From: Clostridia bacterium
GTDB lineage: Bacteria > Bacillota_A > Clostridia > Christensenellales > Aristaeellaceae
DNA: 12,717 bases
Reading direction: 5' to 3'
NCBI GenBank assembly: GCA_017517815.1
Contig: JAFWYA010000022.1
Coordinates: 1-12,717, forward strand
Below, one piece after another: positions 1-12,717 of the stretch (positions within the stretch are counted from its first letter, which is position 1; each line of letters opens with the position of its first letter). Under the pieces are notes generated by a model. That model saw only the letters and a list, made by a program, of their open reading frames with translations, had not been told where the DNA came from and did not search any database. The translations under genes were made by a program, and so were the position numbers.

Positions 1-179
1 CGGTTTATGTCATCTGCCAGAGCGGCCTGAGAAGCTACATTGCCAGCCGTATTCTGGAGGGCAACGGCTATGAAGCCTATAATTTCGCCGGAGGATTCCG
101 GTTCTACGACGCGGTCATGAATGATCGCGCGCTGATCGAAAAGGCTTATGCCTGCGGTATGGATACCATTGATTCATAA
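1..179 (+). CDS. Rhodanese-domain protein, C-terminal fragment (5' end outside window)
   Basis: An open frame enters from the left edge (first full codon at 3) and stops with TAA at 177-179, leaving 58 residues. The fragment starts VYVICQSGLRSY. The CQSGLR stretch matches the CxxGxR active-site loop of rhodaneses, in which the cysteine carries a persulfide. The following NGYEAYNFAGGFRFY is typical of the end of a rhodanese domain, where a Gly-Gly turn precedes the last helix. It may be a single-domain sulfurtransferase or, as often in Clostridia, the C-terminal domain of a CoA-disulfide reductase-like FAD enzyme; the missing 5' part would decide. It converges on the Crp/Fnr gene, with a hairpin between them. 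The rhodanese assignment is firm; the full architecture is unknown. Confidence 0.85.
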   Translation, partial: VYVICQSGLRSYIASRILEGNGYEAYNFAGGFRFYDAVMNDRALIEKAYACGMDTIDS

Positions 180-186
180 AAAACAG

Positions 187-224
187 AGAATGTCCGCCAT
201 GTGTTCTGCACCGGCGGACATTCT
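187..224 (-). terminator. Rho-independent terminator between convergent genes
   Basis: A perfect 12-bp stem (187-198 paired with 213-224) has a 14-nt loop. Read on the minus strand it is followed by a run of six T (the A-run at about 178-183), so it is a good terminator for the Crp/Fnr gene ending at 229. On the plus strand no T-run follows, so termination of the rhodanese gene would be weaker. Confidence 0.8.
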
Positions 225-228
225 CCCG

Positions 229-885
229 TTATTCACTCAATTCTTCCAGTTTCTTCTGATCTGTGATCTCTATCGTTCCACGCGACAGCTTCACCATGCC
301 TTCGTTCTGGAAATATCGCAGCATGCGGGTGACAACCTCGCGGGGATTGCCTATGTGATTGCCAATGATCTCATGGGTGGTCTTCAGTTCGTTCGTGCCC
401 TCGATGGCGGCTTCCTCCAGTAAGAAAGAGGCCAATCGCTTGTCGAAGCTCTTCCACATGATCTGCTCAACAAGCCACATGACGTCGGAAAATCTCGTCG
501 CCATGACTTCGTTGGTGAAGTTGGACAGCGGCGCGGATTCTTCCATAACCCGCTTGTAGGTTTCAGCAGGAATCACCCAAAGTTCAGTATCCTTTTCTGC
601 TTCAATGGTTACATCAAATTGAATGGAACGCATCATGCAGGACGCGGAAAACAGGCACAGATCGCGCTCAAACAGTCTGTAGATGGTGATTTCGCGTCCA
701 TCCTCAGACAGGATAAATGCCCGAAGCTGACCGCTGCGGACAAGGAGAAGTCCGGTGCAGTCTGCATCGCCGTTGTGAATCACATCGCCTTTTTTTACCT
801 TACGGCTGAAAACACTGCTGGAAAGGACTGTCTGCTGCTCTGCCGTCAGACGGCTCCACACAGGGAAAAATGATGAGAACTCCAT
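229..885 (-). CDS. Crp/Fnr-family transcriptional regulator
   Basis: The 218-residue protein has the usual Crp/Fnr length. Residues about 15-115 form the cyclic-nucleotide-binding-like beta barrel (KKGDVIHNGD, LLLVRSGQLRAFILSEDGRE). A long dimerisation helix follows at about 120-157, and a winged helix-turn-helix at about 168-210, with recognition helix near GNPREVVTRMLRYF. It lacks the N-terminal cysteine cluster of oxygen-sensing FNR, and the barrel does not show a clear cAMP pocket, so the effector is unknown. The start at 885 is supported by AAGGAGG seven or eight bases upstream on the minus strand. The gene converges on a rhodanese gene; this arrangement suggests a role in sulfur, redox or nitrosative response, but that is inference. 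It has its own promoter and probable operator at 917-950. Confidence 0.9.
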   Translation of the reverse strand: MEFSSFFPVWSRLTAEQQTVLSSSVFSRKVKKGDVIHNGDADCTGLLLVRSGQLRAFILSEDGREITIYRLFERDLCLFSASCMMRSIQFDVTIEAEKDTELWVIPAETYKRVMEESAPLSNFTNEVMATRFSDVMWLVEQIMWKSFDKRLASFLLEEAAIEGTNELKTTHEIIGNHIGNPREVVTRMLRYFQNEGMVKLSRGTIEITDQKKLEELSE

Positions 886-916
886 GCGAATCCTCCTTGT
901 TCAATGTATCATAGTA

Positions 917-931
917 TGTATATTATATACA
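917..931. promoter_or_regulatory. Perfect palindrome overlapping the crp -10 box (likely autoregulatory operator)
   Basis: TGTATAT-T-ATATACA is a perfect 7-1-7 inverted repeat that fully covers the -10 hexamer of the Crp/Fnr promoter. Crp/Fnr proteins bind dyads of about this size, so repression of its own gene is plausible. The half-site is not the classical TGTGA or TTGAT, so binding by this protein is inferred from position only. Confidence 0.55.
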
Positions 932-950
932 CAAACACGATAATTGGCAA
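922..950 (-). promoter_or_regulatory. Promoter of the Crp/Fnr gene
   Basis: On the minus strand TTGCCA (945-950) and TATAAT (922-927) are separated by 17 bases. This is a near-consensus sigma-A promoter, about 37 bases upstream of the start codon. The predicted transcript starts near 915. Confidence 0.75.
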
Positions 951-1069
951 TCAGAACACAGACGAATCATAAGCTTGCTATTGGCAATCCCAGAATTGCC
1001 CGGATTTTTTCTGAGCTTAAAAAACTTGAATGTGAACAGTATCCTAATGCTGTAGGCCGACGGTATTGA
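944..1069 (+). pseudogene. Possible decayed gene remnant ahead of a terminator
   Basis: An open stretch without a convincing ATG or ribosome site runs from a stop codon at 941-943 to TGA at 1067-1069. Its second half, ARIFSELKKLECEQYPNAVG, reads like real protein, and the frame then breaks off inside the stem of the terminator at 1057. A 10-bp direct repeat (ATTGGCAATC at 943-952 and 980-989) lies in the first part. It may be the tail of a deleted gene that left its terminator behind, or chance. The protein family is not recognised with confidence. Confidence 0.2.
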
Positions 1070-1092
1070 ATGCATTATACCGTCGGTTTTTT
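1057..1092 (+). terminator. Rho-independent terminator with no intact upstream gene
   Basis: CCGACGGTAT (1057-1066) pairs perfectly with ATACCGTCGG (1077-1086), and six T follow at 1087-1092. The loop contains the self-complementary AATGCATT. No intact plus-strand gene lies upstream of it in the window after the rhodanese gene. It insulates the sugar operon from upstream transcription. Confidence 0.8.
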
Positions 1093-1177
1093 CATAGGAA
1101 TTGTCACTTTCTCGTTAGTATTCACTTAATTTTTTGTTTTTGGAGCAAAAACCCTTTTACTGACCATAACACCATTT

Positions 1178-1191
1178 CGTAAGCGCTTCCG
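1178..1191. promoter_or_regulatory. LacI-family-type operator upstream of the sugar operon
   Basis: The site reads CGTAAGCGCTTCCG: a perfect AAGCGCTT core with a central CG, and outer bases that match across the dyad except at one pair. This is the form bound by LacI/CcpA-family regulators. It lies 10 bases upstream of the -35 hexamer, next to a further partial dyad (CGTTAATTTACG, 1190-1201). The natural ligand is the LacI-family protein encoded at the end of the same operon, but CcpA could also bind. The assignment is inferred from pattern and context. Confidence 0.55.
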
Positions 1192-1201
1192 TTAATTTAC
1201 G

Positions 1202-1230
1202 TTGACGAAGGCACTTGATCAAGACATAAT
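1202..1230 (+). promoter_or_regulatory. Promoter of the alpha-glucan operon
   Basis: TTGACG (1202-1207) and CATAAT (1225-1230) are spaced by 17 bases, each matching the sigma-A consensus at five of six positions. The transcript would start near 1237, giving a leader of about 45 bases before the binding-protein gene. Confidence 0.7.
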
Positions 1231-1280
1231 ATAGCCAGAAGTCACAGCATACACAAGCTGTGAAAAAGGAGGAAAAGAAT

Positions 1281-2453
1281 ATGAAAAAGCTTCTTTCCAT
1301 CGTTTTGGCGTTGGTCATGTGCTGTGCGGCTTGCACGGCGATGGCCGAAAACATCACCCTGAAGGTCTGGGAAGGCCAGGATGATCAGGAACTGCTGAAG
1401 GAATTGTGTGAGGCATATGCAGCCCTGCATCCCGAAAACACCTATACTTTCCAGTATGGTGTTGTTGGTACCGCTGATGCGAGCACCCGCTATCTGGAAG
1501 ATCCGGCGGCTGCTGCGGATGTGTTCGTTTATCCTGATGATCAGCTGATTCGTCTGGTACAGGCTGACGCGCTTTACGAGGTAACTCGTAACCACGATGC
1601 GATCGTTGCTGCCAACAGCGTTGGTTCTGTGAATGCTGCAACGTACAAGGATACGCTTTATGGCTATCCTATGACCTCTGATAATGGCTACTTCCTGTTC
1701 TACGATAAGTCCGTTCTGACTGAAGAAGATGTCAAGACTCTGGATGGCATTCTGGCTGCTGCCGAGAAGGCTGGCAAGCAGTTCAACTTCGATATCGCTA
1801 ACGGCTGGTATCTGGCTTCCTTCTTCATCGGCAATGGCTGCACCATCACGCTGGATGACAATGGCAACCAGGTATGTGACTTCAACAACGAAAAGGGTCT
1901 GGAAGCTGCCAAAGCAGTGGCTGCGCTGTGTGCGCACCCCGCTTTCCTGCCTGGCGACCAGAACATTCTGACTGGTACGATTGGCGAAAGCGTTTGTGCC
2001 GGCGTGTGTGGCACCTGGGTGGCTGATGCCATCAAGGAACGCCTGGGTGATAACTATGCTGCTGTTAAGCTGCCTACCTTCACGGTTAACGGTGAGCAGG
2101 TTCAGATGGGTTCCTTCGGCGGTTGCAAGATTCTGGGCGTGAATACTCAGAGTGCCTACCCCGTTGAAGCCATGAACCTGGCTGAATTCCTGACCAGCGA
2201 AGCGAGTCAGCTGCGTCGTTTCGAAGTTCGTGGTTATGGTCCGTCCAACATCAACGCCGCGAACAACGAAGCTATCGCTTCCGATCCTGCGCTTGCCGCT
2301 CTTGCAGCACAGAGCAACTATGCTATTACTCAGTTGATCATTGGTGATTTCTGGACGCCTGCAACTGCGTTTGGTAATGCTCTGATCGCTGAGCCTAATG
2401 CAGATCTTCAGCCTCTGCTTGATCAGTGGGTGGCTCAGACTGTCGGTCAATAA
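1281..2453 (+). CDS. malE: Extracellular maltodextrin-type solute-binding protein (ABC transporter)
   Basis: The 390-residue protein is the family 1 extracellular binding protein of a CUT1 sugar importer. The start at 1281 is chosen because AGGAGG (1267-1272) lies eight bases upstream; an in-frame GTG at 1260 would put that site inside the coding region. Residues 1-22 form a signal peptide (MKKLL, hydrophobic core, AMA before Glu23). Cysteines 14, 15 and 18 do not fit a good lipobox, so anchoring as a lipoprotein is uncertain. The mature part starts ITLKVWEGQDDQELLKELC, typical of MalE-like proteins, and has the usual hinge-region sequences such as DVFVYPDDQL and YGYPMTSDNGYFLFYDKS. It is first in the operon, ahead of malF, malG, a GH13 hydrolase and a LacI regulator, which supports maltose/maltodextrin as ligand. 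Codon use looks strongly biased, fitting high expression. Confidence 0.9.
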   Translation: MKKLLSIVLALVMCCAACTAMAENITLKVWEGQDDQELLKELCEAYAALHPENTYTFQYGVVGTADASTRYLEDPAAAADVFVYPDDQLIRLVQADALYEVTRNHDAIVAANSVGSVNAATYKDTLYGYPMTSDNGYFLFYDKSVLTEEDVKTLDGILAAAEKAGKQFNFDIANGWYLASFFIGNGCTITLDDNGNQVCDFNNEKGLEAAKAVAALCAHPAFLPGDQNILTGTIGESVCAGVCGTWVADAIKERLGDNYAAVKLPTFTVNGEQVQMGSFGGCKILGVNTQSAYPVEAMNLAEFLTSEASQLRRFEVRGYGPSNINAANNEAIASDPALAALAAQSNYAITQLIIGDFWTPATAFGNALIAEPNADLQPLLDQWVAQTVGQ

Positions 2454-2466
2454 TTCGTCTACTCCA

Positions 2467-2497
2467 GGAAAGGCTGCCAGAACATGGCAGCCTTTCC
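2467..2497 (+). promoter_or_regulatory. Strong intercistronic hairpin between malE and malF
   Basis: A perfect 13-bp stem (2467-2479 with 2485-2497) closes a 5-nt loop, 13 bases after the malE stop. It lacks a T-run, so it is more likely an mRNA-stabilising or partial attenuation element than a full terminator. Such hairpins after binding-protein genes keep binding protein in excess of the permeases. An ATG at 2484 in frame with malF lies in this hairpin and is not the likely start. Confidence 0.7.
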
Positions 2498-2519
2498 CGG
2501 CTTTCCGGAGGTACATGCT

Positions 2520-3860
2520 ATGAAACAGCTGCTGATTGGGATGCGGCAAGGAGACATCTGGGTAAAGGGCTCCTGCCTGATTATGGGGCTTGGCTGCATC
2601 AAGCGAAAGCAAATTGTCAAGGGCTTACTCTATCTGGCTGCAGAAGCTCTGTTTTTCCTCTTTTTCTTTGGCTTCGGTTGGAAATACCTGCAGCACTTTC
2701 TGACGCTGGGCGAGAATGCACAGAAACGCATCTGGAATGAGAGCCTGCAAATCTATCAGCGAGTTCCTGGAGATAACAGTATGCTGATTTTGCTTTTCAG
2801 CGTACTGACAGTTGCGGTGACTGTATTGTTTGTTTACCTGTGGCTGCTAAATCTGAAAAGTGCTGTTCATGTGTACCGCTTGGAAAAAGAAGAGAAACAT
2901 ATTCCTTCTTTTGGCGAGGATCTGCGCAGCTTGTTGGATGAAAGATTTCACGTTACACTTCTCAGCGTTCCAATGACTACGCTCTTGCTATTCACGGTGC
3001 TTCCGATCATCTTCATGATCTTAATTGCCTTTACGAATTTCGATGCCAATCACCAGCCTCCGGGAAATCTGTTCACATGGACTGGTTTGCAGAATGTAAC
3101 AGATATTTTCCTCGGCAATGCAACAAAGACACATACGTTTACCAGCATTCTTGCATGGACAATGGTATGGGCTGTCTTTGCCACGTTCACCAACTACATT
3201 TTCGGTATGCTGCTTGCAATCATCATCAATCACAAGCTGGTACGCCTGAAGAAAATGTGGCGTACATGGTTCATGATCCCGATTGCTATACCGCAGTTTG
3301 TCAGCTTACTGCTGGTTTCCCGCGCGCTGGAGCCAACAGGTGCAATCAACGTAGCACTGATGGAGCTTGGCTGGATTGAAACACCACTTCCATTCCTGAC
3401 GGATGTCACGCTATCGCGCATTGTAGTTATTGTTGTCAACATGTGGATCGGTATTCCCTATACCATGATGACATTCTCGGGTGTTCTGATGAATGTACCT
3501 GAGGAACTCTATGAAAGCGCAGCAATTGATGGTGCTGGCCCTGTACGCAAATTCGTCAATATCACGTTACCATATATGATTTTTGTCACAGCACCTGCCA
3601 CCATTACCACGTTTGTGGGCAACATCAATAATTTCAATGTCATTTACTTACTCACAGCTGGCGGCCCTGCCAGTCTTGATTATTACCAGGCTGGTAAAAC
3701 AGACCTGCTGGTCACCTGGCTGTACAAGCTGACAGTTGATCAACATGACTACGCTTTGGCGTCTACCATTGGTATTTTCATTTTCATGATTGTTTCTGTG
3801 TGTTCCCTGACCGTATACAACCGTACTGGTGCTGTAAAGAAGGAGGATATGTTCCAATGA
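2520..3860 (+). CDS. malF: ABC sugar transporter permease, MalF type
   Basis: The 446-residue integral membrane protein is a CUT1-family permease that forms the import channel with the MalG-type subunit. The start at 2520 follows GGAGG (2507-2511) with eight-base spacing. Hydrophobic segments are visible at about 36-53, 87-110, 146-172, 208-236, 251-268, 300-320, 353-380 and 412-432. The permease signature (EAA loop), which docks on the ATPase, is at about 329-351: ELYESAAIDGAGPVRKFVN. The N-terminal part up to about 140, with two membrane segments and a charged loop, is an extension common in MalF-like proteins of Clostridia. The stop overlaps the malG start (ATGA), so translation is coupled. 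No ATP-binding subunit gene is nearby; a shared MsmX-like ATPase elsewhere is the usual solution. Confidence 0.92.
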   Translation: MKQLLIGMRQGDIWVKGSCLIMGLGCIKRKQIVKGLLYLAAEALFFLFFFGFGWKYLQHFLTLGENAQKRIWNESLQIYQRVPGDNSMLILLFSVLTVAVTVLFVYLWLLNLKSAVHVYRLEKEEKHIPSFGEDLRSLLDERFHVTLLSVPMTTLLLFTVLPIIFMILIAFTNFDANHQPPGNLFTWTGLQNVTDIFLGNATKTHTFTSILAWTMVWAVFATFTNYIFGMLLAIIINHKLVRLKKMWRTWFMIPIAIPQFVSLLLVSRALEPTGAINVALMELGWIETPLPFLTDVTLSRIVVIVVNMWIGIPYTMMTFSGVLMNVPEELYESAAIDGAGPVRKFVNITLPYMIFVTAPATITTFVGNINNFNVIYLLTAGGPASLDYYQAGKTDLLVTWLYKLTVDQHDYALASTIGIFIFMIVSVCSLTVYNRTGAVKKEDMFQ

Positions 3861-4711
3861 AAAAACATGTGAACAAGCGCAATTTGCGCACCTCCATCGG
3901 ATTGCATACACTATTGACAGTTCTTTCGGTCTTGTGGATGTTGCCGGTTTTCTGGCTTCTTCTTTCTTCCTTCCGCAAGGAACCAGGCGCATATACCCCT
4001 TATCTTTGGCCGAAGGGCTTTACCTTTGATAATTACACTCGTCTGTTTACAGATACACGTTTGTTCAATTTCCCTCGCTGGTTCATGAATACATTGTTTG
4101 TAGCAATATGCTGCTGCGTGCTGACAACCATACTGACGCTGATGGTTGCATATGTGTATTCTCGTCTGCGTTTCAAAAGCCGTAAAGCCATCATGAACAT
4201 ATCTCTCATTCTGGGTATGTTCCCTGGCTTTATGAGTATGATTGCAATTTATCATTTCATGAAAGCTATTGGGCTGGATCAGACTTTGTTGGCACTGATT
4301 CTGGTCTATTCCGGTGGTGCTGCTTTGAACTATTACATTGCCAAAGGCTTCTTCGATACGATTCCTAAAGCACTGGATGAGGCTGCAACGCTTGATGGAG
4401 CATCAAAAAACACCATCTTCTGGAGGATCATTCTTCCAAACTCCAAGCCCATCGTTGTGAACACAGCAATCAATGCCTTCATTGCTCCCTGGGTCGATTT
4501 CATCTTTGTTTCTGTTATCATGAAGGATAACTACAATAACTACACTGTTGCCAAAGGTCTGTACACGATGGTGGATAAGGCAAATATCTACCATTACTAC
4601 ACTGTGTTCTGTGCCGGTTCTGTTATTGTGGCCATTCCCATCGTCCTTCTGTTCATCAGACTGCAAAAATACTATGTTGCCGGCGTTACCGGCGGCGCGA
4701 CGAAAGGATAA
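3857..4711 (+). CDS. malG: ABC sugar transporter permease, MalG type
   Basis: The 284-residue protein is the second permease of the maltodextrin importer and has the normal MalG length. The start at 3857 follows AGGAGG (3841-3846) and overlaps the malF stop by four bases. Membrane segments lie near 16-37, 78-101, 112-134, 143-160, 202-221 and 250-268. The EAA loop is at about 172-194: ALDEAATLDGASKNTIFWRI. The extended N-terminal region, with SSFRKEPGAYTPYLWPKGFTFDNY, is characteristic of MalG/CUT1 permeases. It pairs with MalF to form the transmembrane heterodimer and works with the MalE-like protein at the operon head. Confidence 0.92.
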   Translation: MKKHVNKRNLRTSIGLHTLLTVLSVLWMLPVFWLLLSSFRKEPGAYTPYLWPKGFTFDNYTRLFTDTRLFNFPRWFMNTLFVAICCCVLTTILTLMVAYVYSRLRFKSRKAIMNISLILGMFPGFMSMIAIYHFMKAIGLDQTLLALILVYSGGAALNYYIAKGFFDTIPKALDEAATLDGASKNTIFWRIILPNSKPIVVNTAINAFIAPWVDFIFVSVIMKDNYNNYTVAKGLYTMVDKANIYHYYTVFCAGSVIVAIPIVLLFIRLQKYYVAGVTGGATKG

Positions 4712-4716
4712 TCACT

Positions 4717-6444
4717 ATGCAATACGCTGCCATTGTTCATCGGCCCATGAGCGAATTCGCATTCCCTTTGGACAGGACACATTTCGTTTTTCGCCTCCGG
4801 ACAGCTAAGAATGATCTAAAAAAAGTGATCTTCTATTACGCTGACCGGGCAGACATGGCCCCGGAATTAACGTTCTTTTCACTGCCAATGCCATTGATTC
4901 GCTCAGATATGCTTTATGACTGGTATGAAGTCACATTGGAGACGCAATGGCAGCGCGTTGCTTATTATTTTCTGCTTGATGATGGCAATTCTCAATGCTG
5001 TTTTGCCGGAGAATGCTTTGAAAAAGCAGAAGCCATTATTGAGCGTAGTGAGTATTTTCAGTATCCTTTTAACCATAAGTCAGATCTTGCACAGATACCA
5101 GATTGGGCAAGAGCTGCCATTGTCTATAACATTTTTCCTGACAGTTTTGCTGATGGAAGGCGCAGCATTTCTTGCAATGGGAAAAGCGAAACTTATGGGA
5201 ATTATCCTTCTGTATCAAACTATGGCGGCACGATCAATGGAATTAGAGAAAACCTCGATTACATCAAAGGCATGGGGTTCAATTGCTTATACCTTAATCC
5301 GATTTTCACAGCCGGTGCCTATCATAAGTATGATACACTTGACTACAAACATATTGATCCTTGTTTCGGAACAGATACTGATTTCAAAGAAATGGTGCAA
5401 GAGGCACATTGTTTAGGAATTCGTGTGATAGTGGATGGCGTCTTCAATCATTTGAGCTGGCACCATTTTTCTTTCCAGGATGTTCTCAAAAAAGGAAAAT
5501 CATCGCCATACTATGACTGGTTCTATGATCTTCCTGATCCGTTGGTATTGCCACATGACAGTGAAGTACCGCAATACACTTGTTTCGCATATGTAGCCAA
5601 TATGCCTAAGACAGATACTGCTTGTCCTGCCCTACAGGCATATTTCTGTGAAGTAGGCCAATACTGGCTGCGGGAGTTTGATGTAGATGGCTGGCGGCTG
5701 GATGTGGCAAACGAAGTTGATGATAGTTTCTTGCGAGCATTCCGAAAAGCGGTAAAAGAAATCAAGCCTGACGCCATGATTATCGGTGAAGTCTGGGAAA
5801 ACTCGGAGCATTACATGACTGGTGACATGGTAGATGGGGCCATGAACTACGATTTCCGTCGTTTTGCCACACAGTATTTTGCTGAAAACATCCTGACGGC
5901 AGCCGAATTTGATCTCAGGCTTAGCAGCTTGCTGATGCGATATAAGAAGCAAATGCTGCCCGGACAGCTGAACTTGCTGGATGGGCACGATACACCTCGT
6001 TTTTTGTCGCTTTGCCAGGGTGATATTACAAAAATGGAGCTGGCCATCCTTTTCCAGATGACCTTCGTTGGCATGCCATGTGTCTTCTATGGAAATGAAA
6101 AGGGAATGATGGGTATAAAGGAAGCAGAATACCGTATGCCCATGCCCTGGGAGACCGTTTCGCCGCTGACTGACATCTATCAGCAAATGATTGGTCTGCG
6201 TAAGGCGAATATGCCTTTGACACATGGTGATTTTGAAACAATAAAGGCAGAAGGTATGCTGCTTCACTACGCTCGTACTTGGAAGAACGAACGCATTGAT
6301 ATCGCCATGAACCCTGGTCAAACCTCTATAAAATATGATATCAGCGGGGAATGTCTATTGAAAAAAAGAGCTTCCTGTGGTTTACTGATGCCAGGTGGAT
6401 ATGTGATTACAAGGAGCGTTATCAATGGCGACCACGATTTATGA
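4717..6444 (+). CDS. GH13 alpha-glucan hydrolase, neopullulanase/cyclomaltodextrinase-like
   Basis: The 575-residue protein lacks a signal peptide, so it should act in the cytoplasm on imported maltodextrins or cyclodextrins. An N-terminal beta-rich module (about 1-120) resembles the CBM34-type domain of neopullulanases, and WARAAIVYNIFPDSFADG (130-147) opens the catalytic barrel as in that group. All four GH13 motifs are intact: DGVFNH (240-245); GWRLDVANE with nucleophile Asp329; IGEVWEN with acid/base Glu358; and LDGHD with Asp425 as the third carboxylate. A C-terminal domain follows to 575. The start, six bases after malG, is preceded by GAAAGG. The end overlaps the LacI gene by 20 bases. 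Maltogenic amylase, neopullulanase and cyclomaltodextrinase cannot be told apart by motif alone. Confidence 0.9.
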   Translation: MQYAAIVHRPMSEFAFPLDRTHFVFRLRTAKNDLKKVIFYYADRADMAPELTFFSLPMPLIRSDMLYDWYEVTLETQWQRVAYYFLLDDGNSQCCFAGECFEKAEAIIERSEYFQYPFNHKSDLAQIPDWARAAIVYNIFPDSFADGRRSISCNGKSETYGNYPSVSNYGGTINGIRENLDYIKGMGFNCLYLNPIFTAGAYHKYDTLDYKHIDPCFGTDTDFKEMVQEAHCLGIRVIVDGVFNHLSWHHFSFQDVLKKGKSSPYYDWFYDLPDPLVLPHDSEVPQYTCFAYVANMPKTDTACPALQAYFCEVGQYWLREFDVDGWRLDVANEVDDSFLRAFRKAVKEIKPDAMIIGEVWENSEHYMTGDMVDGAMNYDFRRFATQYFAENILTAAEFDLRLSSLLMRYKKQMLPGQLNLLDGHDTPRFLSLCQGDITKMELAILFQMTFVGMPCVFYGNEKGMMGIKEAEYRMPMPWETVSPLTDIYQQMIGLRKANMPLTHGDFETIKAEGMLLHYARTWKNERIDIAMNPGQTSIKYDISGECLLKKRASCGLLMPGGYVITRSVINGDHDL

Positions 6445-7423
6445 TTTGGCTGAAGCAGCAGGTGTATCTATTGCGACGGTATCGCGCGCACTGAATAATC
6501 ACTATGCCGTTTCAGAAGCAACCAAGAAACGCATACAGGCGTTAGCAGAAGAGATGGATTTCCATCCAAATGCCAGAGCGCGCAGCTTTGCAAAACGAAG
6601 ATCCGGAATTGTTCTGTTCGTAACCGATCTATACAGGAATGTTGCATTTGAGAACCCGCACATGTTTGAAATCATCACGGGGATATCCCAATACTTAGAT
6701 TCCAAGAACTACTCCCTGTTGATCAAGCATATATCTGCAAAAGACGCACCGGCAGGCATAAAAGATCTTATGAACAAGGAACAGGCAGATGCTGTGATTA
6801 TTCATGCAGCAATCCTAAGCCGCGCTTTGGCCGGGGTGATCAGTCACATGGCGCTGCCACACCTGATCATCGGCAAGCCTGATTTCCCAACATCCATATG
6901 TTGGATTGATGTCGATCACGAGCAAGCCGGACAAAAGGCAGCAACATATCTACTGGATAAGGGATATCGTCGGATGGTTTTCCTGATGGGAAATGAAGAG
7001 ACTGACAAGATTTCTCTGGCCCGCAGAAACGGTATGCTGAGCATGTTTGAGGAAGAAGAACTGTCATTCACCACATTGTATGGGGATAGCAGTTATGAGT
7101 CTGGGATTGATTTGGCGGAAAAAGCGATATCGCAGAATCCGCTACCCGATATCATCCTGTGTACAAACAACTACATTGCAATGGCATGTTTACAGGTGGC
7201 CCGACACAAAGGTCTGGATATTCCTGATACAATCGCAATCATGACGTTTGATAATTACCCCTTTTCCATGCTTGTTCAGCCGCAGTTAACCGCCGTTGAG
7301 GCAGACATGTATGACATGGGGCAGGAAGCGGCTCGTTTCATTCTCCGCAAAGTCAAAGTGCCGGAACTGCAAACACAAAGCTACTGCACGATTCCGCGAA
7401 TTGTCGAGCGAGAATCGACATGA
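6425..7423 (+). CDS. LacI-family transcriptional regulator, probable maltodextrin operon repressor
   Basis: The 332-residue protein has standard LacI-family length. The N-terminal helix-turn-helix (about 4-25, TIYDLAEAAGVSIATVSRAL) is followed by the hinge region (FHPNARARSFAKRRS). The periplasmic-binding-protein-like sensor domain runs from about 60 to the end, which reads PRIVEREST as in many LacI proteins, so the 3' end is intact. The start at 6425 follows AAGGAG (6411-6416) with eight-base spacing, inside the end of the GH13 gene. Being last in the operon it would be made with its targets, and probably acts on the dyad at 1178-1191, with a maltodextrin as effector. A MalR-like role is inferred from context. 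It is the last host gene before the mobile element. Confidence 0.9.
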   Translation: MATTIYDLAEAAGVSIATVSRALNNHYAVSEATKKRIQALAEEMDFHPNARARSFAKRRSGIVLFVTDLYRNVAFENPHMFEIITGISQYLDSKNYSLLIKHISAKDAPAGIKDLMNKEQADAVIIHAAILSRALAGVISHMALPHLIIGKPDFPTSICWIDVDHEQAGQKAATYLLDKGYRRMVFLMGNEETDKISLARRNGMLSMFEEEELSFTTLYGDSSYESGIDLAEKAISQNPLPDIILCTNNYIAMACLQVARHKGLDIPDTIAIMTFDNYPFSMLVQPQLTAVEADMYDMGQEAARFILRKVKVPELQTQSYCTIPRIVEREST

Positions 7424-7440
7424 ATGGGTTGCACATTCAT
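7420..7440 (+). terminator. Weak hairpin at the end of the sugar operon
   Basis: ATGAATG (7420-7426) pairs with CATTCAT (7434-7440) around a 7-nt loop that starts at the LacI stop, and is followed by ATTGTTTG rather than a clean T-run. It is the only candidate terminator before the mobile element. The true operon terminator may have been separated by the insertion. Confidence 0.25.
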
Positions 7441-7475
7441 ATTGTTTGTAGGATCGGAGCTTTGCGCTGGGTCAT

Positions 7476-7504
7476 CCAATAGGGACGCGCAGCATCCCTG
7501 TTGG
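7476..7504. repeat. Inverted repeat abutting the oriT
   Basis: CCAATAGGGA (7476-7485) pairs with TCCCTGTTGG (7495-7504) as ten base pairs including one T-G wobble, around a 9-nt loop. It ends where the oriT begins. It may be an accessory relaxase or host-factor site, a transfer-termination structure, or part of the element's end. Confidence 0.6.
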
Positions 7505-7546
7505 CACACAACTTTGCTTGCAAAGTGTAGTGTGTTATACTTTGGA
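7504..7546 (+). other. oriT: Origin of transfer (oriT), MobV / pMV158 type
   Basis: The order GCACACA, ACTTTGC-TT-GCAAAGT hairpin (7511-7526), then TAGTGTG|TTATACTTT (7528-7543) reproduces the layout of the oriT of plasmid pMV158 as I recall it, including the nic-region core. By analogy the plus strand is cut between G7534 and T7535. A second, alternative inverted repeat spans the nic (CAAAGT at 7521-7526 with ACTTTG at 7539-7544), and CACAC at 7505-7509 faces GTGTG at 7530-7534; overlapping alternative hairpins are a hallmark of this family. A MobV relaxase is encoded at 11486-12460 in the same window, which gives an independent match. The TTATACT core also looks like an extended -10 box, and promoters overlapping oriT are known in pMV158. 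Confidence 0.85.
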
Positions 7547-7691
7547 CGGCGCTGACGCTGAAAAGTGCTTGTGCCGGAGGCTCTTGCAGTTGGCGGTGGC
7601 AGCAGAACAGCGATGAGTTTTGTGAGGCAAAGGACTGCCCTTGCCGCTGTTCGGAAACAGAAAAAAGAAGCCGTATGCGGCTTCTTTTTTT
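7542..7691 (+). ncRNA. Possible short transcript from the oriT to the terminator
   Basis: TG-T-TATACT (7533-7541) is an extended -10 box with a weak TTGCTT (7514-7519) 16 bases upstream. The next 150 bases carry no credible gene and end in a strong terminator. The stretch can fold: CGGC/GCCG near 7547-7580 and AACAGCG (7607-7613) with CGCTGTT (7645-7651). It matches no RNA family that I recognise (not tmRNA, RNase P RNA or a clear SRP RNA). The promoter resemblance may simply be the nic core, so this is a weak call. Confidence 0.22.
7661..7690. terminator. Bidirectional rho-independent terminator
   Basis: A perfect 13-bp stem (A6-GAAGCCG at 7661-7673 with CGGCTTC-T6 at 7678-7690) has a TATG loop and T-runs on both strands. 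It ends the minus-strand regulator-sigma transcript 40 bases after its stop, and any plus-strand transcript from the oriT region or read-through from the sugar operon. Confidence 0.9.
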
Positions 7692-7729
7692 GCCGTCCGG
7701 AGTATATCGTACCGCCGCGGCGGACGCCC

Positions 7730-8374
7730 TCATTCCTGCCGCAGCAGTTCCCGGCGGGTGTTATCAAGGGCGTTCTTTTCGATGCTCTTTGCCCAGCTAC
7801 GACTTAAATGGAAGTGCCTTGCGGTATCGGCAATAGTGCGTTCCTGGTTCTCTTCATCAAAGCCGAAACGGTATTGCAGGTAGGTGGATTCCCGGTTGTT
7901 CAGCTTGTTCAGGGCAGCATGAACCGCTTCGTTTCGTTCCTTGATCAGATAGATCTGCTCCGGGGAAAGGTGGTATCGGCTCACCAGATAGAGGCATTCA
8001 CCTTTTCGATATACAGTACCTTCCTGCATCAGCAACCGCATGTGGGTGCCCTGTTCTTTCAGAGCGTCATACTGCTGGTGCATGTAATCCATCATGGAAC
8101 GTCGGATGGCCACGGTGACATAGGTCAAGAACTTGCTGCCTGCATCCGGTTTATAATGCGTACAGCTTCGCAGTAATCCGAAGGCGCCTTCCTGTACCAG
8201 ATCATCAGTGGTGATGGGCAGAGCGTCAGCCACCTTTTCGTACTTATCCCACAACTGTTGGGCACACTTGTTCAGGTATCCCCAGTTTTGTTGCAGCAGC
8301 AGATTCGGCGCGTCGGTATTGCCGTCTTGTACCATCCTGCAAAGCTCTTCATTGGTCAGGGGCAAGTTGTTCAT
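7730..8374 (-). CDS. Small sigma-70-family factor of the mobile element
   Basis: The 214-residue protein shows sigma region 2 at about 22-100 (DDLVQEGAFGLLRSCTHY at 57-74 for core binding; KFLTYVTVAIRRSMMDYM at 81-98 for -10 recognition and melting). Region 4 is at about 148-212, with a helix-turn-helix near RTIADTARHFHLSRSWAKSI (179-198). Regions 1.1 and 3 are missing, so it is of the minimal two-domain type. The start at 8374 lies inside the upstream regulator gene (26-base overlap), which implies translational coupling; the ribosome site is weak (GGTGA). It probably directs transcription of element genes, or is a degenerate sigma-like regulator comparable in role to Orf7 of Tn916. Its target promoters are not known. 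Confidence 0.8.
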   Translation of the reverse strand: MNNLPLTNEELCRMVQDGNTDAPNLLLQQNWGYLNKCAQQLWDKYEKVADALPITTDDLVQEGAFGLLRSCTHYKPDAGSKFLTYVTVAIRRSMMDYMHQQYDALKEQGTHMRLLMQEGTVYRKGECLYLVSRYHLSPEQIYLIKERNEAVHAALNKLNNRESTYLQYRFGFDEENQERTIADTARHFHLSRSWAKSIEKNALDNTRRELLRQE

Positions 8375-9152
8375 CAGGTTTCACCACACTTTGTACCAGC
8401 GCACGGAAGGCATCCTGCACTGCGGACGGGCTGGCATCCAGTTGCGTGGCCGCCACATGGGAAATTGCCTCAGCCACATCATCAACCGATACCGATTTTC
8501 TGGGTGCATTTTGCCCTTTGTTGAGTTCGTCATAGGTTTGCTTCATGATCTGCAGAACAGTTTTATCAGAGGGCTTAGGCAGCGCACCCACCTGCTTCTT
8601 GATCTCCCGCACCGCCTGCATGAAGGAATCCTCAATATCATGCAGGTCATGCTGATACACAGGCGTCTGAAGGGCAGACAGCTCCCTTTGTGCCTCCGGG
8701 AAACCGGATAATTTTGCACCGGCAAAGGCCAACATCTGGTTGACAACATGTACCCCCTGGGCAATTTCGTTGTTCAGCATGTTCATCATCTGCCATGTAG
8801 CGCGGGCGAAATGCTCGTTTTCCAATAAACAGCTGACGACAACGGGATTGGCTTTTTGTGTGTACAGATTCCGCGCCGCCTGGGTTGTCAGACCGAGCTC
8901 TGCGATATCATAATTCATCCGGTCCGGGACGTCGCTTTCCCCCAGAAGGAAATCGGTGGACACGTTAAGGGCTTGGGCGATGCGATTGAGATTATCATCG
9001 CTCAGCTTTTCGGTTTTACCGCTGATGAAACGGCTGATCAGGCTTTTCGTACAGCCGGATCGGGCGGCAAGCTCGGCCTGGGTGATCTTTCTGGACTTGA
9101 GCAGATCCTGCAGACGGTCGCGGATTTTTCCGGGAAGATATACTTGCTCCAT
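8349..9152 (-). CDS. XRE-family helix-turn-helix regulator of the mobile element
   Basis: The 267-residue protein begins with a Cro/CI-type helix-turn-helix at about 8-74 (ITQAELAARSGCTKSLISRF, then DDNLNRIAQALNVSTDFLLGESD). The remaining 190 residues are mostly helical and match no domain I can name; they may hold oligomerisation or a sensing function. The start at 9152 is supported by AAAGGGG eight bases upstream on the minus strand. It is transcribed away from the primase-helicase-relaxase genes, with a shared control region holding inverted GGCGAACA repeats, an arrangement typical of the master repressor of integrative elements. It overlaps the sigma-like gene, so repressor and sigma factor are made together. 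Confidence 0.85.
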   Translation of the reverse strand: MEQVYLPGKIRDRLQDLLKSRKITQAELAARSGCTKSLISRFISGKTEKLSDDNLNRIAQALNVSTDFLLGESDVPDRMNYDIAELGLTTQAARNLYTQKANPVVVSCLLENEHFARATWQMMNMLNNEIAQGVHVVNQMLAFAGAKLSGFPEAQRELSALQTPVYQHDLHDIEDSFMQAVREIKKQVGALPKPSDKTVLQIMKQTYDELNKGQNAPRKSVSVDDVAEAISHVAATQLDASPSAVQDAFRALVQSVVKPDEQLAPDQ

Positions 9153-9233
9153 ATTGAGGCCCCTTTATACGTTGGTAGATATTGTTATGATCCATTATAA
9201 CTATCTAAAGTTGAAAAAACCTTTCACTTCTAA

Positions 9234-9262
9234 ATTATAAACGCAAATATTCTTTTTGTATA
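9234..9262 (-). promoter_or_regulatory. Promoter of the XRE-sigma operon
   Basis: On the minus strand TATACA (9257-9262) and TATAAT (9234-9239) are spaced by 17 bases. The transcript would start near 9227 with a leader of about 75 bases. Another TATAAT at 9194-9199 (minus) has no good -35 partner and may be a minor promoter. Confidence 0.6.
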
Positions 9263-9326
9263 GGCGAACAGAGAACATTTGTGCTCGTTTTTATTGCATT
9301 TCTGCAATTTCAGCGATATGTTCGCC
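9263..9326. promoter_or_regulatory. Inverted GGCGAACA operator pair in the divergent control region
   Basis: GGCGAACA (9263-9270) directly abuts the -35 box of the XRE promoter, and its exact inverse TGTTCGCC is at 9319-9326. The 48 bases between hold GAACATTTGTGC (9273-9284), one mismatch from the Gram-positive LexA core GAACNNNNGTTC. Placement between divergent regulator and replication/transfer genes makes the pair a likely XRE operator; LexA control is only a possibility. Confidence 0.45.
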
Positions 9327-9377
9327 CTGAATGATTGCAGTAGTGCCGGATTTCTACGGTCATGGCCATTTTCTCCG

Positions 9378-9383
9378 TATAAT
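9378..9383 (+). promoter_or_regulatory. -10 box for the primase-helicase-relaxase operon
   Basis: A perfect TATAAT lies 44 bases upstream of the primase start, but no recognisable TTGACA-like hexamer exists 16 to 18 bases before it (TACGGT at 9355-9360 is the best placed). Such a promoter would be weak unless helped by an activator or an alternative sigma factor. Confidence 0.45.
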
Positions 9384-9426
9384 CTATCGACAAGAGATTG
9401 TCAGAAAAATGAAAGGAGGAAATGTC

Positions 9427-10005
9427 ATGAACATTTTCCGCAACACCAAAGCAGCGATTACCCCCCGACAAGCCGCCCAACATTATGGACTATCGGTGGA
9501 GCCATCCGGCATGGCTCACTGCATCTTCCATGATGACCAGCACCCCAGCATGAAGCTGAATGACACGTACTTTTACTGCTTCAGCTGCCATACTCACGGT
9601 GATGTGATTGATCTGGTTGCCCAGCTCTTTCACGAAAGTCCGTATGATGCAGCCAAACGATTGGCTTCTGATTTCTGTATATTAGCAGCCCCACAACAAA
9701 AAAGCATGGAAGCAAGGCCACTAACACAGCCATCTCCAACAGAGGAGCGGCTGTGTTTTTCTATTCTCATGGATTATGAGCAGTGCCTGCAGCAATGGAA
9801 GAAGGCTTATGCCCCCACAGACCCGGAGGAAGAACCGGATGAACGGTATGTATTGGCCTGCTACGATCTGCCCCACATCAGCAGTCTGGTGGATATCTGG
9901 TTTCAGCCGGACAAGGAACAGCAGCAGGAACTTGCACAGGCTCTTTTGCAGGATGGAACGCTGGTGCAGATCCTGAAGCGAATGACCAATGCCAGGGAGG
10001 AGTGA
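9427..10005 (+). CDS. CHC2 zinc-finger mini-primase / primase-like protein
   Basis: The 192-residue protein carries a DnaG-type CHC2 zinc finger: Cys32, His35, Cys51 and Cys54, in the typical frame of CxxH...DQHPSMKLN...YCFSCHTHGDVIDLV. The rest, about 85-192, is acidic and helical. No TOPRIM catalytic core is visible, so it probably serves as the DNA-recognition part of a primase and works with the helicase encoded next. The start at 9427 follows AAAGGAGG (9412-9419) with seven-base spacing. The helicase gene follows after four bases. Such small CHC2 proteins are common in replication modules of Firmicutes mobile elements and phages. Which protein does primer synthesis cannot be told from sequence. 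Confidence 0.8.
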   Translation: MNIFRNTKAAITPRQAAQHYGLSVEPSGMAHCIFHDDQHPSMKLNDTYFYCFSCHTHGDVIDLVAQLFHESPYDAAKRLASDFCILAAPQQKSMEARPLTQPSPTEERLCFSILMDYEQCLQQWKKAYAPTDPEEEPDERYVLACYDLPHISSLVDIWFQPDKEQQQELAQALLQDGTLVQILKRMTNAREE

Positions 10006-10009
10006 AACA

Positions 10010-11377
10010 ATGGCAAACAACAAGATTTCCCCTGAGTTTTGGCCGGAATGGTACGATGGCAAAACCATCAACGAAGCTGTCTTCTGCCAGCATTTCCTCC
10101 GGGAACACAAGCTGGTCTTCACCGAAAACGCCTTCTTTTCCGTGCAAGGGCGCATAGTGGATGAGGCACCATTGAAAATGGATATTTTCAATCTGCTGGA
10201 ACCTTACGTGGTTACCAGCGTGACCAAGAAAATCGCCAGCATTATTGAACTGCTGAAGATCACCGCCCATGTGGATGATTTGCCGCCCCAGGCCGATCGT
10301 ATCCACCTGATCAATGGCACCCTGTTCCTGGACGGAAGCTTCTCGCCGGACATGAATGAAATCGTCCGCAGTCGCTTTTCAATCCGCTATAATTCGGATG
10401 CACCAGCCCCGGAACGTTGGCTTGCTTTCCTCAACGATCTGCTGCATGAGGAGGATATCCCCACTTTACAGGAATTCATGGGCTATTGCCTGATCCCCAG
10501 CAACAAGGGTCAGCGGATGATGGTCATCAAGGGCAGCGGGGGTGAGGGAAAAAGTCAGGTCGGCGTGACGCTCTCCCGTCTTTTTGGTGTGAACGCCAAG
10601 GACGGCAGCGTAGGCAAGGTGTCCGAGAATTGCTTTGCCCGGGCCGATCTGGAGCACATCCACCTGATGATCGACGATGATATGCGCATGGAAGCCCTGA
10701 AACAGACCAATTATGTGAAATCCCTTGTGACGGCCCAGGGCAAGATGGACTTGGAGAAAAAAGGACAGCAGAGCTACCAGGGCTGGATGTATGCCCGGCT
10801 GCTGGCCTTCTCCAACGGCGACCTGCAGTCCCTCTATGACCGCAGCGATGGCTTCTACCGGCGGCAGCTGGTACTGACCACCAAGCCTAAACCGGTTGAC
10901 CGCCCGGACGATCCGGATCTGGCTGTCAAGCTGTGCGAAGAGCTGGAAGGCATCTTTCTATGGGCGTTTGAGGGGCTGCAACGGTTGGTGGCAAACAAAT
11001 TCCGCTTCACCGAAAGCGACCGGGCAAAAGCCAACCGCGAGGTGATCAAGCGAGACGCCAACAATGTGATTACCTTCATGGAATCCACTGGCTATATCAA
11101 GCTGGATCCGGATGCTTCCGTCAGCGCCGAGGAATTTTACCGTATCTATTGCCTTTGGTGCGAAGAGAATTGCTCCACCCCCATGAAACGTCGCAGCGTC
11201 AGCGATTTTCTGATGGCAAATCTCAGCAAGTATGGCCTGGATCACAACAACAATCAGGTCAATGCTGCCGGACGCAGAGTGTGGGGATTCCAGGGCATAC
11301 GCGCCATTGTGAAACTACCCATGGAAACCAGGGATGGCTGGCAACGTGTTGAACCGGAAGACAATCCCTTTGCCTAA
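10010..11377 (+). CDS. SF3/D5-like replicative helicase of the mobile element
   Basis: The 455-residue protein is a phage/plasmid-type primase-helicase C-terminal half. The start at 10010 follows AGGGAGG (9994-10000); an in-frame ATG at 9989 would place that site inside the gene. Residues about 30-165 resemble the D5 N-terminal-like region (RIHLINGTLFLDG, RFSIRYNSDAPAPERWLAFL). The P-loop is GSGGEGKS (175-182), Walker B is HLMIDDDM (218-225), and LLAFSNGD (264-271) contains the conserved Asn of SF3 motif C. The Arg pair in GFYRRQLVL (281-289) is probably the arginine-finger region. A winged-helix-like C-terminal part (about 340-430) completes the D5/poxvirus-type layout. It should unwind the element's DNA together with the CHC2 protein. 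Confidence 0.88.
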   Translation: MANNKISPEFWPEWYDGKTINEAVFCQHFLREHKLVFTENAFFSVQGRIVDEAPLKMDIFNLLEPYVVTSVTKKIASIIELLKITAHVDDLPPQADRIHLINGTLFLDGSFSPDMNEIVRSRFSIRYNSDAPAPERWLAFLNDLLHEEDIPTLQEFMGYCLIPSNKGQRMMVIKGSGGEGKSQVGVTLSRLFGVNAKDGSVGKVSENCFARADLEHIHLMIDDDMRMEALKQTNYVKSLVTAQGKMDLEKKGQQSYQGWMYARLLAFSNGDLQSLYDRSDGFYRRQLVLTTKPKPVDRPDDPDLAVKLCEELEGIFLWAFEGLQRLVANKFRFTESDRAKANREVIKRDANNVITFMESTGYIKLDPDASVSAEEFYRIYCLWCEENCSTPMKRRSVSDFLMANLSKYGLDHNNNQVNAAGRRVWGFQGIRAIVKLPMETRDGWQRVEPEDNPFA

Positions 11378-11411
11378 AACCATACATATAAGGATTTTCC
11401 GCTAATCTCTA

Positions 11412-11448
11412 TGTACATACGTACTGCGTACATGAGTACGTACGTACA
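11412..11448. repeat. GTAC-rich inverted repeat upstream of the relaxase gene
   Basis: Arms 11412-11425 and 11435-11448 match at 13 of 14 positions around a 9-nt loop (GCGTACATG). Both arms consist of overlapping TACGTA/GTAC units. It lies 37 bases before the relaxase start and 34 after the helicase stop. It may be an operator that separates relaxase expression from the helicase, an mRNA hairpin, or a replication-origin element. It does not resemble the oriT at 7504. Confidence 0.7.
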
Positions 11449-11485
11449 CAGCAATTTCAATCTATTTCTATATAAGGAGCTTTTG

Positions 11486-12460
11486 ATGAAAGAAAAATAT
11501 GCTATTATGCGATTCGCCAAGTATAAGGGTCCGGAGATCAGCCGGATCGAAGGTCACAACGAGCGAACCAAGGAGAAATATGCAAGTAACCCCGACATTG
11601 ATCCCACCCGTTCCCATCTGAACTTCCACCTGATTGCCCCTGTCGGAAAATACCGCCAAGAAGCAGAGCGACAGATTGCCCGTGCCCATTGCCGCACACG
11701 AAAAGATAGCATTCGAGTAGTGGAAACCATCATCACCTGCAGCCCTGAATTTTTTAAGGACAAAGATCCTGAAGAAATTCGGGCTTTTTTTGTGCACGCT
11801 TTGGACTTCCTGCGGCAGAAGCAAGCGCCGGAAACCTTCCTGTCTGCTGTGGTGCACCTGGATGAAAAGACACCTCATATGCACGTCAGCTTCGTGCCTC
11901 TGACGCCTGATAAGCGCCTCTCTGCCAAGGATATCATCGGCAACCGCAGGAGTCTGATTGCCTGGCAGGACGCTTACTGGAAGCACATGGTGGCCAAGTA
12001 TCCGGAACTCGCCCGGGGCGAAAGCGCCAGTCTCACTGGCCGTACTCATATTCCTACCCAGGTGTTCAAGCAGATGGCTCGCCTGACCAAGAAGCGACAG
12101 CGCATCGAGGCCGTGCTGGACGGCGTGAATCCCTTCAACGCCAAGAGCAAGGCTGACGAACTCCGCCACCTGCTGGATGATTATATTCCAGGCGTAGAAA
12201 AGATGGCCACCCAACTGAAAAAGTACAAGGCGGCTTTTGAGGACGTCGAAACCCTGGAAGCAGAGAATGCCGACCTCTCCCAGGAGCTGGATGAAGCCAA
12301 GCGCGGCAGCATCCGGGAGAAGATGGAGTTTGCTAAGCTCCGGCAGGAGCACAGGGATGCGGTTGCTCTGTTGGACAAGATACCCATGGATGTATTGGAT
12401 CAGCTGAAGAAGGAGGCCAAAGCTGACCAGCGGAATGTAACGGAGGGGTTGAATAAGTGA
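11486..12460 (+). CDS. mobV: MobV-family relaxase (Mob/Pre type)
   Basis: The 324-residue relaxase should cut one strand at the oriT and pilot it into a recipient. The start at 11486 follows AAGGAG (11474-11479); upstream in-frame ATG codons, as at 11411, lack a ribosome site and lie in the inverted repeat. The N-terminal MobV motif is EGHNERTKE with His24; in pMV158 MobM the equivalent histidine is the nucleophile. The metal-binding motif HLDEKTPHMHV (124-134) is intact, with His124, His131 and His133. A conserved-looking RSHLNFHL (42-49) lies between them. Residues about 240-295 are strongly heptad-like and probably form a coiled coil, as is common in the C-terminal half of these proteins. 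Length is shorter than MobM. Its target oriT is probably the one at 7504-7546. Confidence 0.93.
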   Translation: MKEKYAIMRFAKYKGPEISRIEGHNERTKEKYASNPDIDPTRSHLNFHLIAPVGKYRQEAERQIARAHCRTRKDSIRVVETIITCSPEFFKDKDPEEIRAFFVHALDFLRQKQAPETFLSAVVHLDEKTPHMHVSFVPLTPDKRLSAKDIIGNRRSLIAWQDAYWKHMVAKYPELARGESASLTGRTHIPTQVFKQMARLTKKRQRIEAVLDGVNPFNAKSKADELRHLLDDYIPGVEKMATQLKKYKAAFEDVETLEAENADLSQELDEAKRGSIREKMEFAKLRQEHRDAVALLDKIPMDVLDQLKKEAKADQRNVTEGLNK

Positions 12461-12717
12461 TGACCCCTATGCTACAATTATCGCAGGACGAGCTCCAGCG
12501 GATGCTGCACACCGCCGCCAGGGAAGGTGCGCAGACAGCGCTGGAGGCCTCCGACGCGTTCGTGCACCTTGACAAATACACCAGTAATCACTCAGAAATA
12601 TCGGACATGTCGAAGGAGGAAAACGACGATATGTCCCGTAACCGAATCAGGCATAATCTGATCATCGGCCATAACCCCGATGGCACGCCCATCACCCGCT
12701 GGATCAACGGCTACACC
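12460..12717 (+). CDS. Partial gene at the right edge, possibly the element's integrase
   Basis: An open frame starts with ATG at 12460, overlapping the relaxase stop by one base (TGATG), and stays open for 86 codons to the window end. GGAGGGG (12442-12448) precedes it. Residues 1-55 are polar and helical. The following part, RIRHNLIIGHNPDGTPITRW, looks like the beta-hairpin start of the N-terminal arm domain of tyrosine recombinases, which are often the last gene of such elements. The catalytic part is outside the window, so integrase is an inference from context and style; a relaxase accessory protein is the main alternative. Confidence 0.55.
   Translation, partial: MTPMLQLSQDELQRMLHTAAREGAQTALEASDAFVHLDKYTSNHSEISDMSKEENDDMSRNRIRHNLIIGHNPDGTPITRWINGYT

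Follow-up and report, generated by a model that had tools for sequence, protein, structure and literature searches.

A probable MobV-type origin of transfer, abutted by a hairpin unit, in a putative integrative mobilizable element of a Clostridia bacterium

We analysed a 12,717-nucleotide stretch of the genome of a gut Clostridia bacterium (contig JAFWYA010000022.1; hereafter the window) and conclude that positions 7504–7543 are most probably the origin of transfer (oriT) of an integrative mobilizable element, a reading to which we give, as a whole and including its proposed mechanism, a probability of roughly 0.88. The evidence consists of a sequence match to known origins, retained inverted repeats, linkage to and shared orientation with a mobV relaxase gene, conservation of an abutting hairpin, and the layout of the element in related genomes. 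The origin comprises the following features:

7504..7543, + strand: oriT core, from GCACACA to the nic region TAGTGTG/TTATACTTT, with the predicted nick at G7534/T7535 (sequence and alignment)
7511..7526, + strand: IR1, a 7-bp stem with a TT loop, its 3′ end 8 nt before the predicted nick and its pairs retained in 33 aligned oriTs
7505..7534, + strand: IR3, CACAC/GTGTG plus IR1, 12 pairs, a GTA bulge on the right and the nick at the 3′ terminus
7521..7544, + strand: IR2, nine pairs including one G.T (arms 7521–7529 and 7536–7544) around GTGTGT, read from the sequence

The GCACACA start, the 7-bp hairpin with a TT loop and the nic core described by the sequence-only reading are all present at 7504–7543, and its claim of overlapping alternative hairpins is borne out by the presence of all three inverted repeats. 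GCACACA begins at 7504, IR1 pairs ACTTTGC (7511–7517) with GCAAAGT (7520–7526) across the loop at 7518–7519, the outer arms of IR3 at 7505–7509 and 7530–7534 enclose IR1, and 7528–7543 reads TAGTGTGTTATACTTT. This arrangement follows the account of the pMV158 oriT in PMC5863519, which describes an IR1 ending 8 nt before the nick, an IR3 with the nick at its 3′ end, and an IR2; our predicted nick was placed by comparison with the relaxase MobM in the same account. As in the MOBV1 oriTs of pMV158 and pUB110 (PMC5863519; pUB110 DNA in our locus L149), the window shares the nic sequence, with the nick context 5′-GTGTG/TT at 7530–7536 around an inferred nick position, a 7-bp IR1 spaced 8 nt from G7534, a 12-bp IR3 stem with a 3-nt right bulge and the nick at its end, and a nine-pair IR2 that is weaker in most relatives, which carry ACCTTT. 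Allowing up to 3 mismatches, the window has a single occurrence of the 17-base core pattern, against 0.01 expected from 200 shuffles. Folded as DNA, 7504–7546 has an ordinary energy (z −1.02, with 32 of 200 shuffles folding equally well), so the evidence lies in sequence identity and comparison and not in folding. Two further repeats lie nearby: a 15-bp inverted repeat, 87% complementary, joins 7536–7550, within the nic side of the oriT, to 7692–7706, and a perfect 13-bp inverted repeat with A/T ends at 7661–7690, between the oriT and a sigma factor gene, is a possible two-way terminator that our terminator scan did not call.

Alignment with known MobV oriTs, which the sequence-only reading had named as a check, revealed similarity. 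A blastn search with a 66-base query (E up to 10) matched 385 of 72,556 plasmid records, 349 of them at 95–99% identity and mostly as short cores; matches at this threshold mostly span 20–40 bases and so show the core, not the whole oriT. Plasmid pUB110 (record H38) matched the nic side over 22 bp at 95.5% identity, and the longest good matches, from Subdoligranulum, Pusillibacter and Lactobacillus amylovorus, reached 90–91% over 40–46 bases. We then aligned 33 oriTs, comprising 29 of the 30 distinct sequences from mobV loci (L078 was left out) and four from plasmid records, and found TAGTGTGTTATAC invariant throughout. Pairing of IR1 and IR3 is retained in 97.2% of alignment cells, compared to 93.2% in shuffles and 19.8–60.2% with slid partners. 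Two-sided change occurs at just one of the 12 pairs (13 sequences), a count matched by shuffles in 500 of 500 trials, so covariation of the oriT stems is modest. Across 60 relatives of the genome nearest to the window (G001), the core at up to one mismatch was found at 21 places in 11 genomes, compared to 3 places for the backwards pattern.

The rest of the putative element backbone within the window is encoded downstream of the oriT:

7730..8374, − strand: sigma-70 family factor gene (protein profile)
8349..9152, − strand: XRE/HTH regulator gene (protein profile)
9427..10005, + strand: CHC2 zinc-finger primase-like gene (protein profile)
10010..11377, + strand: gene with a P4-family primase/helicase C-terminal domain (DUF5906; TIGR01613; protein profile)
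11486..12460, + strand: mobV relaxase gene with motifs HNER, NFHL and HLDEKTPHMH (Pfam, NCBIfam, PDB 4lvi)
12457..12717, + strand: tyrosine integrase gene, 5′ part, 87 codons in the window; complete in L004 (10972–12213)

The relaxase gene, which the sequence-only reading had also placed in this window, is confirmed by an NCBIfam MobV score of 156 bits (cut-off 100), a Pfam Mob_Pre score of 167.5 bits (cut-off 25.5) and a match to MobM (PDB 4lvi, E 2.6e-20). Motif I (HxxR) and motif III (HxDExxPHUH) are kept in 79 of 79 relaxases, counted among 81 Mob proteins after two short ones were dropped (L054, 3 aa; L057, 115 aa). Motif II departs from the NYD/EL form (NYEL in MobM): the window has NFHL, and phenylalanine replaces tyrosine in 78 of 79 proteins, with tyrosine in L008 only. 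Cleavage by MobM is reported to go through a histidine (PMC5863519), and we therefore do not take the motif II phenylalanine as loss of function; judged from the protein sequences, the substitution is in line with the published histidine mechanism. The nearest genome also has a second MobV element (L085 1937–5648, contig C3), with its oriT ~2.6 kb from mobV and a relaxase that keeps the motif II tyrosine (NYHI).

To define the relationship between oriT and relaxase across relatives, we scanned genome contigs with the window MobV protein, obtained 440 relatives and kept the best 80, giving 81 sequences with the window. The core (up to 2 mismatches) is present in 56 of the 81, always on the + strand shared with mobV and always upstream of it, at 1,589–9,745 bp (median 4,730 bp; 3,958 bp in the window). 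Several of these 56 loci are near copies, and they hold 30 distinct oriT sequences. Where 4 kb or more of upstream DNA is available, the core is present in 54 of 57 loci, and this linkage, together with the pUB110 alignment, supports the earlier assignment to the MobV type. Three loci (L068, L076 and L081) have mobV with 8.9–10 kb of upstream DNA and no oriT, including in a looser scan, and two others (L143 and L146) have an oriT and no mobV detectable within the fetched stretch (16 kb for L146). Between oriT and mobV, tblastn found sigma factor matches in 36 of the 56 loci, XRE in 46, CHC2 in 49 and P4-type in 53. L145 (Pusillibacter faecalis) and L146 (Lactobacillus amylovorus), which belong to two classes of Firmicutes, carry near-identical oriT and hairpin unit sequences, and an aadE gene is annotated close by in both.

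The site differs from pMV158 and pUB110 in having a shorter IR1 loop and in its separation from the relaxase gene, a distance on which the sequence-only reading had not remarked. Whereas the oriT of a pMV158-type cassette adjoins mob directly upstream and overlaps its promoter, here 3.96 kb intervenes, and 7504–7543 is, by its sequence and position, an oriT outside a compact oriT–mob cassette. IMESag-rpsI of Streptococcus agalactiae is likewise an integrated mobilizable element with a MobV relaxase and a three-repeat oriT, but PMC5090054 describes its oriT, mob and ssoA as one 1.6-kb module, while regulator, primase and helicase genes split oriT from mobV here. Tn4451 and Tn6215 also appear as MobV mobilizable elements of Firmicutes in PMC5704250, a likeness by listing and not by sequence.

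The layout of the complete element emerges from relatives. The nearest genome, G001 (which we take to include L004), shares window block 1052–12717 at 97–99% identity. There, mobV is followed by the complete tyrosine integrase gene and then the 3′ end of tRNA-Pro(CGG); the same 36 tRNA-Pro bases recur 16,072 bp leftward in the same orientation, delimiting a 16-kb element, and an intact tRNA-Pro lies on another contig. No direct repeats of at least 10 bp are shared by the DNA immediately left of the oriT and the L004 right end; this had suggested that no att sites exist, a reading overturned by the tRNA-Pro fragment. In a second genome (G325, taken as the same as G003), a tRNA-Pro fragment interrupted by ~95 bp precedes the same left terminus, and a Fic gene, oriT, mobV, integrase and an intact tRNA-Pro follow, over ~18 kb. 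A third (G250) has attL at 388–433, oriT at 5858, mobV at 10881, integrase at 11858–13090 and tRNA-Pro at 13290–13366. Integrase and att repeats are thus seen together in these three genomes, and the window holds the 87 integrase codons and no att site. We found the integrase in 8 of 300 family genomes; in 7 of the 8 its gene leads directly into an intact tRNA-Pro(CGG), the tRNA in G001 being damaged. In L004 a second tyrosine integrase gene (12586–13833) faces the first across the damaged tRNA-Pro, which suggests stacked elements.

Upstream of the oriT lies a further block of genes:

1281..7423, + strand: probable cargo comprising a solute-binding protein, two permeases, an alpha-amylase family enzyme and a LacI regulator (G001 comparison)

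The sequence-only reading had called lacI a host gene, which is probably wrong. In G001 this maltose-type operon with lacI lies between the two tRNA-Pro repeats, in the cargo arm of the tRNA-Pro(CGG) element, and neither element end is visible in the window, where the assignment of lacI as cargo is made by comparison and is probable. That the operon and lacI are ordinary host genes with the element merely downstream is an alternative we consider unlikely. Seven of seven fetched stretches from other genera carry the operon without the element and match to about the end of lacI (L137 and L141 are short), and the left flank of the window is host-like, with 3–958 matching G003 chromosomal DNA at 92% identity; against this, the G001 operon is flanked by both repeats, and operon and element form one block of 97–99% identity with a different left flank. 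Window positions 1–1060 have no match in G001, and no left terminus (attL) was found in the window, whose end precedes the right end of the element. The 94 bp at 958–1052, between the host-like DNA and the shared block, match neither, and 956–1055 gave just 11-bp matches (to L114, L153 and L124). A search for an empty site at lacI in 60 relatives returned only G001 as close.

From these features we propose a mechanism for transfer of the element. The MobV protein encoded 3.96 kb downstream would fold or capture the IR1/IR3 hairpin on the + strand and cut at G7534/T7535, probably through His24. It would then lead the 5′ end, carrying oriT, regulators, primase, helicase, mobV and int, into the recipient, with the left cargo arm entering last. 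Passage may occur through the secretion channel of another element, and no secretion-channel gene was named among ten tested proteins of the window backbone. An alternative, that the site is a decayed oriT and the element immobile, would fit the missing attL, the host-like left flank, the right end lying beyond the window and the damage to the 5′ part of the tRNA-Pro beside the right end in G001. We regard decay as improbable: the mobV, primase, helicase and regulator frames are open in the window, the oriT core is exact, and a relative at 98% identity retains an intact oriT.

The proposed functional oriT would also include a hairpin directly on its 5′ side, a feature absent in pUB110 and pTXW and not described by the sequence-only reading:

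7466..7505, + strand: hairpin unit, paired at 7476–7504 (folding and pattern), abutting the oriT; relatives carry one to six units

G7504 is the last paired base of this hairpin, and IR3 follows from 7505 with no spacer. Each unit has the form GGG..TCCAA-[variable arms]-TTGGC, a constant clamp around varying self-complementary inner arms; the window unit folds with z −2.39. By pattern a unit abuts the oriT in 53 of 56 loci; of the other three, the L066 and L078 contigs begin at or just before the oriT and L045 has a variant hairpin. Consecutive units number one to six per locus (11, 22, 10, 5, 4 and 1 loci, respectively; n = 53), counted before a chance unit (L012 3803–3849) was dropped from the set of 103. 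Among the remaining 102 distinct units, 90 have C-G as the second clamp pair, 9 have T-A and 3 have T-G, and inner arms fold better with their own partners (−9.43 kcal/mol) than with swapped ones (−6.70 kcal/mol, sd 0.24, 200 shuffles, 80 distinct arm pairs). These arms were end-justified; a MAFFT alignment of 67 units was set aside, having misplaced the 3′ arms. Within the 300 bp upstream of the oriT, on its strand, we counted 111 unit-like hairpins, compared to 32 elsewhere in the 81 sequences (1.31 Mb), 12 of these on the oriT strand and 20 on the opposite strand. An abutting unit is present in L143, L145 and L146; L144, L147 and L148 were left out of this comparison, the pattern not having found the core there.

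What the units do can be weighed against this distribution. A role in replication, as iterons or as a single-strand start for the element primase and P4-type helicase, would agree with two observations: other plasmids are known to carry repeated hairpins close to their origins, and in 49 of 56 loci the interval from oriT to mobV contains CHC2 and P4-type genes. We find this role doubtful: in the window no spacer separates unit from IR3, and P. faecalis L145 combines the oriT, the unit and mobV (the last as two tblastn pieces) with no match to CHC2 or the P4-type gene, so that the unit goes with the transfer site and not with the replication module. That the units work at the RNA level or terminate transcription of the upstream gene is very improbable; the units do lie downstream of lacI on the same strand in the window, but they have no T tract, no terminator-like site was called in 7300–7800, and they stay with the oriT regardless of upstream content. 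Rfam gave no match on the window, and in six array-bearing loci just 5S rRNA and tRNA, both in L011. We instead propose that the abutting unit belongs to the functional site: as a DNA structure sitting at the 3′ end of the strand that is transferred, it may help relaxase loading or strand closing. A more general and tentative proposal, somewhat short of even odds, concerns gut-clostridial MobV elements, with a relaxase that has lost the motif II tyrosine of the family. Their oriT would be enlarged by one to six exchangeable hairpins in tandem, each with a fixed clamp and a freely variable interior, and this array would stack end to end with the relaxase hairpin of the strand being transferred. 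At the 3′ end of that strand it would form a modular DNA-structure platform for relaxase loading, strand closing or complementary-strand start. A narrow search found no open-access paper joining tandem hairpins to oriT and relaxase.

Together, these data locate where transfer begins in a large group of gut mobilizable elements: in DNA left without annotation in the fetched plasmid records, kilobases from the relaxase gene and out of reach of a search confined to the vicinity of mob. They suggest that a starch/maltose-type operon travels as cargo, make available a natural set of Tyr-to-Phe relaxases for testing the histidine mechanism, and provide a ready system in which to ask whether structured DNA beside the nick matters.
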